Assembly (NCBI RefSeq): GCF_036711975.1
Contig: NC_091967.1
Coordinates: 20,646,001 to 20,710,000, forward strand
Length of the DNA stretch: 64,000 bases
Direction of reading: 5' to 3'
Origin: Onthophagus taurus
Lineage: Eukaryota; Arthropoda; Insecta; Coleoptera; Scarabaeidae
How positions within the stretch are numbered: position 1 is the stretch's first letter; every line of letters starts with the position of its first letter. The notes below the pieces were generated by a model. It searched no databases. It worked only from the letters and a program-made list of their open reading frames with translations, and had not been told where the DNA came from. The position numbers and the translations under genes were made by a program. Shown here piece by piece: positions 15,501 through 48,669 of the stretch.

Positions 15501-17486
15501 ATAAGGTCTTAACCAGTAGTAAATACGTGGAAAGTTTCAAATTCTACCTTTTACTTACAGCCGAAATACAAAACAAAATGTAAATTTTTGGCTCAACTTT
15601 GAGCGCTCATAGCTCGAAAACAAAAGAGTTGTGACCCTATGTTTATATAAAAAACTTGTGTTATTTTGGCAAGTACTACATGCTATAGTAGACGCCACGA
15701 GAGCTGGCAGTAAATCATCGTTTTCCGCTCTTACAAATGCCATACGTAGTTCACAAACCGCTAGAGAGTAATGTGTGTTAGAAAGAGATAGCATTAATTT
15801 AATATGTCTGCTGTACAATTCAAATGGCCACGTCGAAAAAGTACGTCTGTTCTTCTAAGGGATGTAACTCTATAATTATAACCTCAAATCGAAACGTCTT
15901 GTGAGCGTTGTCATGAATCTGTTAGTGATGGATTGAGCCAACGAGAGAGATAGCTTGCGCAAGGTGATCGAACCGAGATAGACATAGAAGCGTACTGACA
16001 TATAATGGGCGTGCGTTAATTTATAAGATAAAAAACTATCAATTAGAAGTAACATTTATAATACTTACAGGTGATGTGAAACTGTATTATCGCGAACTTT
16101 GCACACGAAACAATACATTTTTAAACATAACGGTGTGACTGGCTGTGACACAACAAAACGATAAACGTCAGGTTTGACACTTTTGTGCGCATGCGCCCGT
16201 CTGTTTAGTACCGTTTTATGTCTATCTTTGTTACACTTTCACATTATCGCTTTCCATCTGCGTCTATTCACCTTGAGCCACATTTTTGTTAGTAGATATA
16301 TTCAGTTAGCTCAATCCATATTATATATAATAAAAGGTGTTTTCACAAGCCGAAAATGTTTTCTTTGAAAGGAAAATCATTAAATAATATCTTTGACAAT
16401 GTTTGACATATAACCTCCATTACTAACATAACCTACATTTAAATGTATGTGGTGAAATAATCTAAGTCGTACGTCCATATCTTGATTCATACCATTTTTA
16501 AACGATCTGTCACTGCCAGCTCTCGTGGTTTCTACTATAGTAAAGTTTCCCGATTAAAAACTGAACCACCTATATACAGGATGTCCGGTATCTTCCGTAT
16601 TAGAGCATTATACGGTTGTAGGATACATTATTTTGAAGCGATCTTTCTAATAAAATTTTTTCGAAATGTTTCTAATAACCGCACGGGAACTGTTTAAAGT
16701 CATTGGTCTTTGGTTCACCGAAAAAGTTTATTTCTTTTCCCGTGTCGAATCTATTGGTAAGTACACGTGAGAAACGTGTTATGAACGGCGCGACGCGGCG
16801 GTCCGACCGAAGGTTACGCCGATTACCTGAATCTGATTTACGATTTGCCATTGGACTTTCAAAAAATATTATTAGAATGATCGCTTCAGAATAATGTATT
16901 CTACAACCGTATAATGCTCTGATGCGGAAGATACCGGACACCCCTGTATAGTAAACATGCATAAGAATATTTTACGTATCTGAACAATAAGTTGTGCGAG
17001 GTAAGAATGATGACTTTGTTTGCTTTCTGACAAAAAAATATAAAAACAATATATCTGTCTTTTTACAGATTTTGCATGACTTTACCTTATCCGGTCGTTA
17101 AAAAACATATAAAATTACTTCATTATAGCCGAGATCTCGTTATACCCGATCCTCGTTATAACCGACATTTTTAACATTGTAAGGGTAGGACTTTTGACGG
17201 GACTTGAAGGCATGCTCGTTATAACCGGTTTTCACTGTATTACAAAATTTAGTTAGCAAAAATACAAAATTTGCAGATACAATTCAGCTTAGGACGGCAG
17301 ATGTGTTGTATGTTTATTTTAACTTTAACATACAAAACTGATTTATTATTTTTTATTCTCTATTTATTTTTTAATTACTAAAATCAGGGGGCAAAACGTA
17401 AACAACCTGAAACAAATATAGAAGCAACGAATCCAAAAGAAAAACAACGAAAATTAGCACAATTTAGTTTTACAAAGAAGACTTGA
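3587..17486 (+). CDS. WDHD1: WDHD1/Ctf4/And-1 replisome adaptor, 5'-truncated by the window
   Basis: Twelve exons with consistent phases: 3587-3836, 3900-4184, 4247-4474, 4529-4814, 4871-5160, 9482-9654, 9707-9964, 10017-10193, 10248-10352, 10406-10522, 10591-10710 and 17388-17486, about 795 residues. The first exons give WD repeats (SAGDGFLRFWDVES, then IIVWAVES and CALAWNPLG), then an acidic linker. Next come the Mcl1/Ctf4 middle domain (RYLCWNEVGIVRCY, FSIPGPVVCMSAH) and a helical C-terminal part (IRCKGSKYPNFVPRP, NLAVKYATKLERKR). The known role is linking the CMG helicase to DNA polymerase alpha and sister cohesion in the nucleus. About 100 N-terminal residues are missing. The vertebrate HMG box is not found, but the protein still ends in KLAQFSFTKKT, like the conserved vertebrate tail. 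Introns 5 (4.3 kb) and 11 (6.7 kb) are full of transposons. Confidence 0.93.
5340..5935 (-). pseudogene. Jockey-like retrotransposon 3' fragment in a WDHD1 intron
   Basis: The minus-strand translation matches the region after the RT domain: PAWLNSPHVYKIDAQLNNTM, then SAPVELLSVLSNVPP and INALTREYKEILS. Past a stop it continues as KTWLTLNRILIQHGNVP, the usual W-x-LNRIR-x-GHG-like block. Several stops break it and there is no RT catalytic core. Confidence 0.7.
6377..6886 (+). pseudogene. C-terminal domain of a jockey/CR1-type retrotransposon
   Basis: A 169-residue open frame contains YSLVYSHISYGILLWGKA, FVLQKRVIRLIFNLKQRDSC, SHHAYNTRNINIL and SPLYSCAKIFNKLPNDVK. This is the standard block after the RT domain of insect non-LTR elements. 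It ends in a stop and is followed by an AT-rich tail with a TTTGGTTTGATTTGATTAAT end, as at LINE 3' ends. The RT core is missing, so this is a 5'-truncated insertion. The frame is unusually intact, suggesting a younger insertion than its neighbours. Confidence 0.8.
7258..9055. repeat. Intronic satellite, about five copies of a 362-bp unit
   Basis: The phrase TATTAATTAAAGTATCCTC recurs near 7258, 7622, 7986, 8311, 8673 and 9034, a spacing of 361-364 bp except one copy shortened by about 38 bp. Each unit has two related halves of about 180 bp. Both contain CCGTTTTGAAAAAT, then a TTTTTGAGAAA-like stretch, then a TCGA-rich part (ATAATCGACAATTTTTTCGA in one half, TTTTCGATGTTGCAATTTTC in the other). 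The array is thus a dimer-based satellite. Open frames within it are accidental. Confidence 0.85.
11345..11500 (+). repeat. Short interspersed repeat with decayed hammerhead-like motif, copy 2
   Basis: Reverse complement of the repeat at 2205-2370. In the motif at 11354-11397 the first core base is T instead of C (UUGAAGA). The rest reads an extra A, GGUUGC..GCAUCC as stem II with one U-U mismatch, GAAAC and GUC, then AAACC pairing with GUUU. If the motif is a ribozyme, this copy should be dead because that core C is essential. Confidence 0.55.
11489..12851 (-). pseudogene. Non-LTR retrotransposon reverse transcriptase, frameshifted
   Basis: Two overlapping minus-strand frames join at about 12165-12200. 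The first gives the RT fingers: NNYRPISLITSFAKILEKII and FQFGFRKGRGASDA. The second gives MAIFLDLRKAFDSVDHALLL, GVPQGTVLGPILSLLYINDL and the catalytic FADD box (MVSFADDTALYF), then VKYLGVIMD. One frameshift separates them, and both the endonuclease and the C-terminal tail are missing. All RT motifs being readable suggests fairly recent decay. Confidence 0.85.
12852..13561. other. Interior of the long inverted-repeat element, no frame
   Basis: Sequence between the RT fragment and the right arm. CACGTGTGCTGT occurs twice (about 13022 and 13268). No coding potential was seen beyond short chance frames. Confidence 0.5.
14590..15030 (-). pseudogene. LINE 3' fragment
   Basis: The minus-strand translation gives FESMHKVQVVQNSCLRFVNG, then KRRDHISPF. 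After stops come remnants of the usual LRNYGTPCLSRLD end that precedes the stop in these elements. An A-rich tract follows on the left (14220-14540), as expected for the 3' tail of a minus-strand insertion. Confidence 0.65.
15280..16575. mobile_element. Decayed inverted-repeat element related to 45858-46797
   Basis: 15290-15700 matches 45900-46330 in reverse complement (TTGAGCCAAAAATTTACATT-like block, a CCCTATGTTTATATAAA block and a CATCCCC block). An inverted partner segment lies at 16505-16575, with CTGCCAGCTCTCGTGG and a GTAAAGTTTCCCGATTAAAA end. The complement of its CCAGCTCTCGTGG block is at 15695-15712. Between them (15715-16500) I see no coding sequence. Confidence 0.55.
16577..16946. 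mobile_element. 370-bp MITE with about 85-bp terminal inverted repeats
   Basis: The left end CAGGATGTCCGGTATCTTCC and the right end complement match over about 85 bp, including GAGCATTATACGGTTGTAG and GATACATTATTCTGAAGCGA-like blocks. TA sits at both outer edges, as expected for Tc1/mariner- or pogo-driven elements. The centre is GC-richer (CGCGACGCGGCGGTCCG). A 95-bp relative without the centre is at 52150-52244. Confidence 0.85.
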
Positions 17487-23817: not shown

Positions 23818-25493
23818 TATAGTAACAAGTCACACCTTTTAGTCACAACTCACTATGAAACTGATACTAAAACTGACAAGTAAATTTGAACCGTGTGTTC
23901 CATCATTTTCGTTTCACATTTGCTCGCATGCAAACATGCTTCAGTTTTGCATCACCGTGTATGGGCCCCTTAAGTGTGAGTTCCAGTTTAGTTTACTGTT
24001 TAGTGTTACCCCCAGGTATTTAACTTTTGTTTTGGGGTTAATATTTCTGCTTTCAATGGAGGGTGCTTTTATTTGTAGCTTCCTTCACCGAATGAAAGGA
24101 ACTATTTCGATTTTATTTGGTTTGATGCTGAGCTCATTGCTTCTACACCAAGTACTGGTGAGTAGTAGTAGGGCTTTCCGCATTAGTTGAGTTATGATTG
24201 TATCATATTTACTTCGGATTGTGATTAGCAGGTCATCAGCATACACCTGAATCTTGAATCCAGTCTTTGTTAGGTTCTTACACCATTTGATTGTTGACGG
24301 ATGTATATCTTTTTCGTTTAGAGCCTTCTCTATGGATTTATAGGAGGTGTTATCAAAAATACCCTCTATGTCTATAAAAGCACATAGCTAGTCAAAGCAT
24401 GGAGAGCAGTAATTGTTGAGTTTGCTTTCTGGTAAGCATGTTGGCTAGGGTGGAGTGGATTAGTGACAAGCATTCCATTCCTAAGGTATTGATTGATTAC
24501 CTTTTCCATCCCTTTGAGGAGAAATAAGGTTAGGCTCATTGGTCTGTATGCCTTGGGATCGCTGTTTGAACGCCTACCACCTTTAGGTATGAAAAGTCCA
24601 CCTTTACTTTCCTCCATAGTGTGGGTATATAGCTAAGGCTGTAGCTAGCTATATATAGGGATATTATTACTGGGAGCAGGTCTTCTAAGCCTCCAGGCGA
24701 TTTTAGGGGCTTGAAATTAGAAATAGCCCACCTTACTCTGTTAGGTGTAAAAATGTTTCCAGCTATGCTGCGAACCCTATCTGATGGAGTGATGTGCGCT
24801 GTCTTCTGGTTTTCGTAGTTGACTACCAGCCAGCGTGCCTTAAATGTGGTGCCGAGGTACTTAGGCTTGATTTCGCTTTCGTGTCCGCTACGGTCCACTA
24901 TTCTTGAGATGATGACCTCTTGAATAGCCTACATTTGGGCTGTTGTGGAGTTCACCTCTGGAAATAGGGAATCTGCAATTCCCATCTTTTTTCCTTCCAA
25001 CACCTTCTTGAAGCTTGCAGCTGTAAGCTTTTGCCCCTGCGGAAAATTGCCTCCGCTAGGAACGCTACGTCTTTCAGTCGTCGCTCGTTTGGTGTTGTGC
25101 TTTCGGAACGAGGTCTTTTAGCCCTCTTCTTCTCCTCACTGATTAGGCTGTGTGGCCTTTGCTTCCTCAAGAGTCAGCTTTTGTTTGAGCAGCCACTTAC
25201 TTAAGCATTTTCCGTGGCATATTTAGAAGGCAATCCGGATAGGAACGTTGAGCTTTAGCCTCGATTTGAACTGCAGCGCCATTGAAGAAAAAATAAAGGA
25301 AAGGTAAATTTAGGAAGGAAACACAAAATACTAGAAAAATCACCAACACAAACACACACAATAATAAATAAAATTAAACAAAAAAATTCATTTGAGAAAA
25401 AAGTTTATCTTTATTTCTTTTTAATGAGATTACAAGTTTAAAATAAATTATCACAGAAAAAAATAAATAACAAATTACGTCTTAACATCTTTT

Positions 25494-27022
25494 TTAATCA
25501 AATTCTGCTCCAATTGTTATACTAATACTTCCTGGTAAAATTTCAGTTTGGTGATACCATTTATTTGTATCAATGACAACTAAAAAAATTGAATTAAATG
25601 GATCCATGTTGCAAGTTCGGAAGTATATAAAAAAGAAAATAAAAACTTCTTACTTACTAAAATTTTTTTAAATTTATTCGGGACTAGTTTCGAGCCATTA
25701 AGCTCATCCTCAGCCAAATGGTCAAAATCACCATTAAAACAGGAAAATCAATATTTGAAACATTTGCAAAATCCTTACACTACATGAATAAAATACTATT
25801 TATAATTAAAATTAAACGAAGTTTTACACTTTATATAGATTTATAAATAGTATTTTATGTGTGATTTTGACAATTCGGCTGAGGATGAGCTTAATGGCTC
25901 GAAACTAGTCCCGTATAAATTTAAAAAAATTTTAGCAAGTAAGAAGTTTTTATTTTCTTTTTTATAAACTAAAAAAATATTAAAATTGTATACACAGCAA
26001 ATACTTTCGCAAAATAACTTACTTATTTCACCTGGTTCAACAGTAATCTCCATTCTTTGACATTTATGCATACATTCAGGTGGTGGTGCTAACTTCCAAG
26101 TTTTTCTTCCTTTAATTTGAGCTTGCCAAGACGGATATGTAACATCATCGACATGCATATGAGCTCCAGATCCTTTCCCTCCCATAAAAATCCAATTTAA
26201 CGCGATATTTTCGGATGTTATCGGTAAAAAATACGGGCGATGATAATAAGTTCTTAAAATTTTTCCAGCATCGTCATTACAATTACTCCAACCTATATAC
26301 CAAGGTTTTGAACCAGGTTCAAATCGAGCACGCTCCGGATTCATGTTTAAAACATCTGATAAAGATTTAAACTCTGTTTTGTATGGAAAAAATTGGCATT
26401 CGAGTTTTATATCGGCGAAATTTCCGGTTGATTGATATAAATCTTTGAAAAAATCGAAACTAAAGTAATCAACAGCTTTCCAACCTTTTGTACCATCTGT
26501 TATAACTACTGGTTTTCCTATCGATGCGTAATTTTTATCAAAATCATCAGGAGAAACGTTATTAATTTTATCGACGGTCGTTACATTGATGCATATGTCA
26601 CAATTTACTGGTCCACGAAACACTTTTGTTGTATCAAACGGAAATTCTAAGAAACACTAAAATGTATGAATTCAAATGTGTTATGATGTTTTTCGAGTAT
26701 CATACAGGAAATGGGATATAAAATGAGTTATTTCCGTCATAAAAATTAATGTATAATGCGATTTTAATAATTTAATAATAAAAAAGATCAAATAATTAGC
26801 ACTTACCTCATCATCACCTCGTAGCCCCATAAAAAAATAAACCATGTAAGCAAAAATTCCTATAAAAACCATGTATGAAATTTTTCTTTCAGAATTTTCA
26901 ATTAAATTAGACGTCCCAATTAATTTCTTAACAACATCCAACTTTTTCAACTTTTCTTTTGATACATTACTTTGATTGATTTTCTCGAAAATCGCCAAAA
27001 ATCTTTTCTCTGCTCTCTCCAT
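25494..27022 (-). CDS. Membrane-anchored JmjC/cupin-8 oxygenase, frameshifted in last exon
   Basis: Three minus-strand exons: 26807-27022, 26023-26656 and 25494-25580, about 311 residues if the frame is kept. The start ATG at 27022 opens a basic N-terminus. A transmembrane segment follows at about residues 51-66 (ISYMVFIGIFAYMVYFFMGL), so a type II membrane protein is likely. The cupin part has GKPVVITDGTKGW, YIGWSNCND and the iron-binding HxD in GAHMHVDDVTYPSW, and also QAQIKGRKTWKLAPPPEC. The distal His lies in WYHQTEILPG of the last exon, but one extra A in the AAAA run near 25558-25563 puts it out of frame, giving an early stop. Substrate unknown: JmjC relatives hydroxylate or demethylate proteins. 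Intron 2 holds a fold-back element. Confidence 0.8.
25676..25719 (-). ncRNA. Hammerhead-ribozyme-like motif, all three stems present (left arm)
   Basis: Minus-strand order: AUUUGG, CUGAGGA, one extra U, GAGC, loop UUAAUG, GCUC, GAAAC, UA, GUC, CCGAAU. Stem I AUUUGG/CCGAAU is 6 bp with one G-U pair. Stem II GAGC/GCUC is 4 Watson-Crick pairs. Stem III is AC/GU closed by UA, so cleavage would follow the C at 25682. The core CUGANGA and GAAA is exact. The extra U between core and stem II is not textbook but recurs in the other copies. Fold drawn by eye; activity untested. Confidence 0.6.
25873..25917 (+). ncRNA. Hammerhead-ribozyme-like motif (right arm)
   Basis: The same core as the left arm on the opposite strand: CUGAGGA at 25879-25885, GAGC/GCUC stem II, GAAAC at 25901-25905 and GUC at 25908-25910. 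Stem I pairs AUUCGG with CCGUAU, five pairs with one U-U mismatch at the fourth position. Core and stem II are unchanged between arms, while both flanks differ slightly. Confidence 0.55.

Positions 27023-28077: not shown

Positions 28078-48669
<20,592 letters not shown>

Follow-up and report, generated by a model that had tools for sequence, protein, structure and literature searches.

What kind of element is the short fold-back sequence that lies in an intron of Onthophagus taurus with a hammerhead-like motif in each arm, how did it arise, and could either motif cut? The locus belongs to a stretch of 64,000 nucleotides (the window), to which coordinates refer unless another locus is named. 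The original prediction had placed a fold-back element at 25621..25973 within a host intron, with outward-facing motifs, and could not assign this class of DNA element. The inverted repeat was recovered, its 118-nt arms (25622-25739 and 25853-25970) being 93% complementary, and both motifs were located. They do face outward: the left-arm motif is at 25713-25682 on the minus strand, the right-arm motif at 25879-25910 on the plus strand. The element is indeed located in a host intron, which spans 25580-26022 on the minus strand. The bounds had to be moved: a 12-bp direct repeat at 25578-25589 and 25967-25978 defines the insertion as 25590-25966, which reaches further left than claimed and leaves the target-site duplication (TSD) outside. 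The class can also be placed. The sequence is that of a Penelope-like element (PLE) pseudo-LTR plus its tail, and inverted pseudo-LTRs and hammerheads have both been described for PLEs. The element is almost certainly a product of PLE retroelement insertion; it is of a known kind and one of many such pieces in the genome. Its features are as follows.

25580-26022, minus strand: host-gene intron, whose flanking exons join in frame.
25578-25589, no strand: left TSD, AACTAAAAAAAT, which includes the host acceptor AG.
25590-25966, no strand: the whole insertion, a head-to-head pair of PLE pseudo-LTRs, recognised from the arms, the flanking 12-bp repeat and arm ends that coincide with the two 3' ends recurring in the family.
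25590-25819, minus strand: left arm, a pseudo-LTR with tail, probably from a spliced template; it aligns to the 3' end of locus L026 minus a 74-nt intron, and its inner end is approximate.
25590-25625, minus strand: tail of 36 nt, in the left arm only, recognised from the two 3'-end groups and from genome matches to the tail pattern.
25590-25607, minus strand: ATGGATCCATTTAATTCA, translated as MDPFNS, the start of the PLE ORF; the same place in locus L068 reads on as MDPINSFPDSTSSLIHGFKRIY.
25682-25713, minus strand: hammerhead motif 1, CTGAGGA to GTC, with the predicted cut after 25682.
25719-25720, minus strand: left-arm site of the missing 74-nt intron, between GACC and ATTTGG.
25820-25966, plus strand: right arm, a tail-less pseudo-LTR with an approximate inner end.
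25872-25873, plus strand: right-arm site of the missing 74-nt intron, between GACA and ATTCGG.
25879-25910, plus strand: hammerhead motif 2, CTGAGGA to GTC, with the predicted cut after 25910.
25967-25978, no strand: right TSD, AACTAAAAAAAT, with the second copy of the acceptor-like TTTTTTTAG.

By eye, the right arm also appears to carry internal deletions close to its inner end.

When the element DNA was compared with the genome, at least 97 matched stretches were obtained, counting both arms and both strands and with scores for 40 of the 181 candidates. In L026, a family copy with the motif lies directly downstream of a GIY-YIG coding stretch on the same strand, this GIY-YIG being recognised by protein match. 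A protein search with its C-terminus (150 of 2,140 candidates scored; 150 of 942 in the GIY-YIG search) showed that six of the seven best matches adjoin family copies (L027, L033, L021, L026, L034 and L009), L026 among them being the source of the query. According to Pfam, both L033 and L027 contain GIY-YIG, and L034 contains RVT_1; for RVT_1, L027 fell under the cut-off. The combination of reverse transcriptase and GIY-YIG that marks a PLE was thus seen in related copies (RVT_1 in L034 and L067; GIY-YIG in L033, L027 and L067), and the 28 loci and the window yielded no intact ORF of the window element's own family. L067 (G000:C1:31636000-31642500) belongs to another PLE family and consists of tandem copies with a period of 2,973, close to which lies a further copy in the opposite orientation; it has an open 837-aa frame with both Pfam domains, RVT_1 and GIY-YIG. 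A PDB sequence search with this L067 protein gave no match.

The left arm ends in TTGCAACATGGATCCATTTAATTCA. With one base changed, this sequence runs on in L068 as the open frame MDPINSFPDSTSSLIHGFKRIY, so the PLE ORF begins within the tail, which holds its first six codons. A 30-nt tail pattern, allowing up to three mismatches, had 22 matches in the genome and none in the control. Just upstream of the hammerhead, a 74-nt segment of the form GTAAGT...TTAG is present in L009, L021, L026, L027, L030, L033, L034 and L036, partial in the short copies L032 and L035, and absent from both window arms and the remaining short copies. As the window copy lacks an intron that ORF-linked copies have kept, its template was probably spliced, and the short copies look like being mostly products of spliced RNA, judging from the borders of the segment. 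Introns are known from PLEs.

Two other sequences in the window deserve mention. At 24372-24928, minus strand, open stretches resemble by eye a remnant of a non-LTR reverse transcriptase, and another short inverted repeat, 83 nt and 92% complementary, occupies 16579-16661 and 16861-16943.

The ends of the family were compared in the 28 loci and the window, using pieces of at least 28 nt and at least 75% identity aligned to a 346-nt reference. The 3' ends of the 40 aligned pieces that extend into the 3' region form two groups about 35 nt apart, 18 at 305-315 and 19 at 338-346, with three elsewhere; the latter group sits at the end of the query, where the reference stops at 346, and its sharpness rests on the flanks and not on BLAST alone. 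Flanking repeats were tabulated for 28 insertions of at least 150 nt. Repeats of at least 11 nt were found at four of them, versus 0.15% of random flank pairs, and all four are at head-to-head pairs (12 nt in the window, 15 in L006, 13 in L017 and 11 in L031). Repeats of at least 8 nt were found at seven (control 3.4%), among them another pair, L004, so that the lengths are 8, 11, 12, 13 and 15 across five head-to-head insertions; the repeats of L019 (8) and L023 (9) belong to single-unit copies and are likely due to chance. The other 21 of the 28 insertions have no flanking repeat of at least 8 nt. Inverted pseudo-LTRs with a short TSD, a PLE trait, are therefore seen in these five insertions, with repeats of 8-15 nt. 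Eight pairs are bounded by a 3' end at either outer border (L003, L004, L006, L017, L020, L031, L035 and the window), six of which combine one tailed and one tail-less arm, while L003 has two tails and L020 has none. The tail-less end of L004 (302) is just outside the 305-315 group.

We also considered that inverted arms might start at the hammerhead cut, and rejected this. With the cut after 250, the nearest starts are 255 in L003 and 256 and 241 in L004, the start at 256 belonging to a match of 37 nt that stands apart. By eye, what is seen in L003 and L006 is a deletion spanning the motif. In these two loci (L003 near 1425, L006 near 1735), the hammerhead is all that the inverted arms are missing, which looks as though a folded stem had been skipped during reverse transcription; by eye, the gaps lie between short AT-rich repeats.

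Much of this architecture is already in print, namely the hammerheads of PLE pseudo-LTRs, the inverted pseudo-LTRs, the tail and the TSD. Passages of PMC3846280 describe inverted pseudo-LTR pairs in PLEs, such as Pen2a_Av of Adineta vaga, and prefer self-priming as their origin. As in the window, an inverted pseudo-LTR completes the Pen2a_Av insert, with a TSD of 9 bp there and 12 here, and one inverted pseudo-LTR has an optional tail, 31 bp there and 36 nt here. In the same passages, pseudo-LTR and tail of Adineta PLEs reach into the ORF, as they do here, and the head-to-head arrangement is the most frequent. Unlike Pen2a_Av, the window element has no ORF between its arms and consists only of two partial pseudo-LTRs. 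The word hammerhead does not occur in the main text of PMC3846280. Sections of PMC7761336 report that many animal genomes contain thousands of minimal type I hammerheads located in PLE pseudo-LTRs; like the motifs found here, these have almost no stem III and are thought to cut as dimers. Parts of PMC11167929 deal with PAc (Poseidon of Anolis carolinensis), for which they report that: the PLE protein cuts AT-rich DNA; reverse transcription begins inside the template near the ORF start, the target strands not being different; two such start sites bound the tail; hammerhead cleavage is not required; and the hammerhead cut only when protein was present, with RNA-seq ends absent at the cut. The window family resembles PAc, as described there, in having a hammerhead at the pseudo-LTR/ORF junction, a tail between two start sites and AT-rich targets. 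Literature searches yielded no title on a hammerhead-bearing inverted-repeat or fold-back element, and no paper on head-to-head PLE insertion by TPRT.

We regard as highly probable, and as the best explanation overall, a PLE insertion from a spliced template whose two primed ends were joined head to head. By this account: a PLE transcript, spliced within the pseudo-LTR, would be used as template; the PLE endonuclease would cut both target strands in a staggered manner, giving rise to the 12-bp TSD; reverse transcription would begin near the pseudo-LTR/ORF junction at each nicked end, at the outer site (ORF codon 6) for the left arm, thus keeping the tail, and at the inner site for the right arm, leaving it without a tail; and the two cDNAs would run toward each other and be joined head to head, with the hammerhead carried along as part of the pseudo-LTR. 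Observed in this account are the PLE identity, the missing intron, the TSD and the two outer ends that recur in the family. The internal PAc start sites, indifferent to the target strand, speak for it, as does the outward orientation of 12 of the 13 neighbours within 1 kb among the first 100 sites listed. The two-strand step itself, that is, reverse transcription initiated on both nicked target strands, we favour with modest confidence. Against the account as a whole stand the many insertions without a repeat of at least 8 nt (21/28), the inward and same-strand neighbours in the family loci and the lack of an Rfam hammerhead match; the unequal arm ends (6/8) come from a small sample, and the start sites are like those of PAc in kind but not in place, as the commonest PAc start in the available part of PMC11167929 is 111-118 bp into the ORF and the one here 18 nt. 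Moreover, head-to-head pairs are put down to self-priming, with an antisense template, in the passages of PMC3846280, an origin with which some of the junctions here could agree. Such self-priming, in which the first cDNA or an antisense template of the PLE would be folded back and copied into the second arm, is the rival that we take most seriously, though we think it rather unlikely. Besides having been proposed for PLEs in those passages, it might be suggested by L068, where by eye an inverted pseudo-LTR fragment meets the palindrome ACTAGT beside the ORF start. However, a copied-back arm should mirror the first one. In six of eight complete pairs the arms instead stop at unequal positions, close to one or the other recurrent end, which argues against it within the limits of this small sample, and the terminal TSDs fit two primed ends. 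We thus infer two independent initiations rather than self-priming.

The explanations that do without PLE insertion fare worse. Long terminal inverted repeats and short flanking duplications would suit a fold-back or MITE-type DNA transposon carrying hammerheads by chance, yet such a transposon should have a fixed TSD length and symmetric termini, and neither was found: the TSD varies among 8, 11, 12, 13 and 15 in the five head-to-head insertions, one arm has an extra tail in 6/8 pairs, the intron is missing and the homology runs into the PLE ORF, leaving this reading with practically no probability. It is very unlikely that the element is a metazoan retrozyme, a non-autonomous element moving via circular RNA made by two hammerheads. 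It is small, non-coding and hammerhead-bearing, and sections of PMC7761336 name PLEs as likely helpers; PMC7229834 and PMC7761336, in the parts on retrozymes, likewise describe small hammerhead-bearing non-autonomous retroelements, but as tandem repeats expressed as circular RNAs, whereas the window element is an inverted pair with PLE ends. Tandem direct hammerheads were not found; there is one motif per strand, inverted, so that a single transcript holds one only. In addition, among the 40 aligned pieces, 30 have their start upstream of the motif, and there is no start within 2 nt of the predicted cut; the templates thus resemble RNA that was not cut and that has the 3' end of a PLE. Finally, a ribozyme adopted by the host and regulating the cupin-domain gene from its intron would be in keeping with motif 1 being sense in the host pre-mRNA (minus strand) with its core intact, and with the acceptor having been duplicated by the insertion. 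The same pre-mRNA, however, would hold a near-perfect complement of motif 1, and folding predictions give -177.7 kcal/mol for the hairpin versus -12.4 for the motif, so we consider host adoption exceedingly unlikely.

The host gene is on the minus strand and its protein matches Cupin_8. After an exon ending in ...TVEPGEI comes a GTAAGT donor, at 26022. The acceptor AG has its last base at 25580, and the exon beyond it keeps the frame up to a stop, IVIDTNKWYHQTEILPGSISITIGAEFD. The intron is 443 nt long with the insertion, and 54 nt without the element and one TSD copy. As the TSD holds the acceptor, the insertion duplicated TTTTTTTAG, with AG ending at 25580 and 25969. If the upstream copy of this duplicated 3' splice site were used, the element would enter the mRNA with early stops.

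In both arms the motif reads CTGAGGA-T-GAGC(T)-loop-(G)GCTC-GAAAC-TA-GTC. Stem I extends over 6 bp in the left arm; in the right arm a mismatch follows after 3 bp. The single extra base that had been noticed between core and stem II is indeed there in both arms; as to the 4-bp stem II, GAGC/GCTC is present in both, though it becomes 5 bp once U-G is counted, and what had been read as a 2-bp stem III is part of a self-complementary hexamer, ACUAGU. A descriptor search gave 26 matches in 219 kb (the window and family loci, which were chosen for carrying the family; L001, L003, L005, L009-L014 and L016 were left out, most, not all, of which overlap other loci) versus 0 in 2.19 Mb after shuffling. 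With a model based on 12 related motifs, both arms were found at E values of 2.1e-14 and 1.5e-13, which are so low partly by construction, since the left-arm motif is one of the 12 rows and close relatives of the right-arm motif are others. The suggested check against hammerhead covariance models did not bear out an Rfam membership, as no Rfam hammerhead family matched in the window (E up to 5) or in a 400-base stretch (E up to 10), nor did any in six related loci; the strong MIR matches in these scans we take to be long-hairpin artefacts. The motif is thus hammerhead-like in sequence and predicted structure and may be called a putative ribozyme.

For the whole genome, the pattern search that had been proposed returned 2,908 matches with a one-base bulge (C or T), against 1 for the reversed-pattern control, these and the following genome-wide counts being pattern matches. 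Requiring two stem II pairs (G-C, then G or C on both sides) left 1,365 matches for the one-base form and 5 for the form without the extra base, with controls at 0. Within the family loci, where the descriptor allowed 0, 1 or 2 extra bases, exactly one was present in 34/34 distinct motifs (T in 31, C in 3), and the unconstrained H17 of these motifs, many of one family, was C in 14, A in 11, U in 9 and G in none. The first 100 of the 2,908 sites listed comprise 81 distinct motifs, selected by a pattern that required neither a palindrome nor a second pair. The centre of ACNNGU is self-complementary in 68 of these 81 (CG 43, TA 17, AT 8), or at 87 of the 100 sites, and the second stem II pair is standard in 76. 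Compensatory changes, which had been named as a check, were partly in evidence. In an alignment of 12 rows (5 of 17 motifs, themselves picked from 19 sites, were dropped for badly aligned loops), 33 two-sided changes were counted versus 10.1 in shuffles, and 96.7% of cells pair; two of the five measures, by contrast, do not differ clearly from shuffles, as the pairs with a two-sided change (7) and the further pair types (16) were equalled in 55 and 50 shuffles out of 500. As the rows had been selected by a pairing descriptor, these counts lean to structure and are support, not proof. The conserved core (CUGANGA / GAAA / NUH) and covarying stems of a type I hammerhead were both found. The hammerhead is thus of the minimal type I, bulged by one base and palindromic in stem III.

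The one-base bulge can also be read from the coordinates given for PAc in part of PMC11167929. There, the AUG made by the bulge starts the ORF, whereas in the window family it opens a short frame only (in 41 of 46 distinct motifs this has under 12 codons), the start of the ORF lying further downstream. That the extra base serves to make the AUG of the ORF was rejected, since only 5 of these 46 motifs from the family loci open at least 12 codons.

Would the window copy cut? A transcript of either strand had been expected to be able to cut itself, and this now appears unlikely. Each strand of the inverted pair carries one motif and the complement of the other. The full element RNA (minus strand) is predicted to fold into one long hairpin at -177.7 kcal/mol (z -26.7), while the isolated motifs fold at -12.4 and -11.4 kcal/mol and have a stem III that looks suited to dimers; self-cleavage in the host intron is unlikely given a hairpin of about -178 kcal/mol. 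Most likely, the hammerhead of this inverted pair is idle, locked in the predicted hairpin. As stem III is palindromic, activity would probably require two motifs in the same orientation or a protein, and the mostly self-complementary ACNNGU suits a dimeric ribozyme. PLE hammerheads are said to work as dimers. If the predicted ribozyme has any activity, it probably needs to dimerise or to be assisted by the PLE protein.

Close pairs of motifs mostly point outward. Among the first 100 of the 2,908 sites listed, neighbours within 1 kb are outward in 12 cases, inward in 0 and on the same strand in 1; within 3 kb, the figures are 17, 0 and 3. In the family loci, 72 model matches gave 11 outward, 2 inward (L017 and L015) and 5 same-strand neighbours within 1 kb, these loci not being randomly drawn and some neighbours stemming from different insertions. 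Outward orientation is thus a rule, not a law. Other PLE families in the genome also show outward hammerhead pairs (L015, L027, L030, L033, L036 and L043). The window itself holds a second inverted pair, from another PLE family, at 30236-30306 and 32867-32937 with other repeats in between; it contains a decayed hammerhead on the minus strand (30286-30243, E 0.18) and, by eye, a similar one on the plus strand near 32891.

A further role of the motif, which we put forward as a doubtful speculation, is that ACNNGU in stem III might serve for the dimerisation of RNA, much as a kissing signal does in retroviruses, and pair two PLE transcripts. If this were true, one template RNA would be brought to each nicked target strand, resulting in a head-to-head pair, and the motif would be kept for pairing two RNAs, with cleavage being secondary. 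Such a role would account for three observations: the palindrome conserved in 68/81 distinct motifs; the lack, among 40 pieces, of any that starts within 2 nt of the cut; and the mostly outward orientation of close pairs.

The single element in the window is ordinary. With about 2,900 motif matches, neighbouring motifs that mostly point outward, two recurrent 3' ends and a palindromic stem III, however, questions about how PLEs use their template, whether cut or uncut RNA and whether one RNA or two, become testable by counting.
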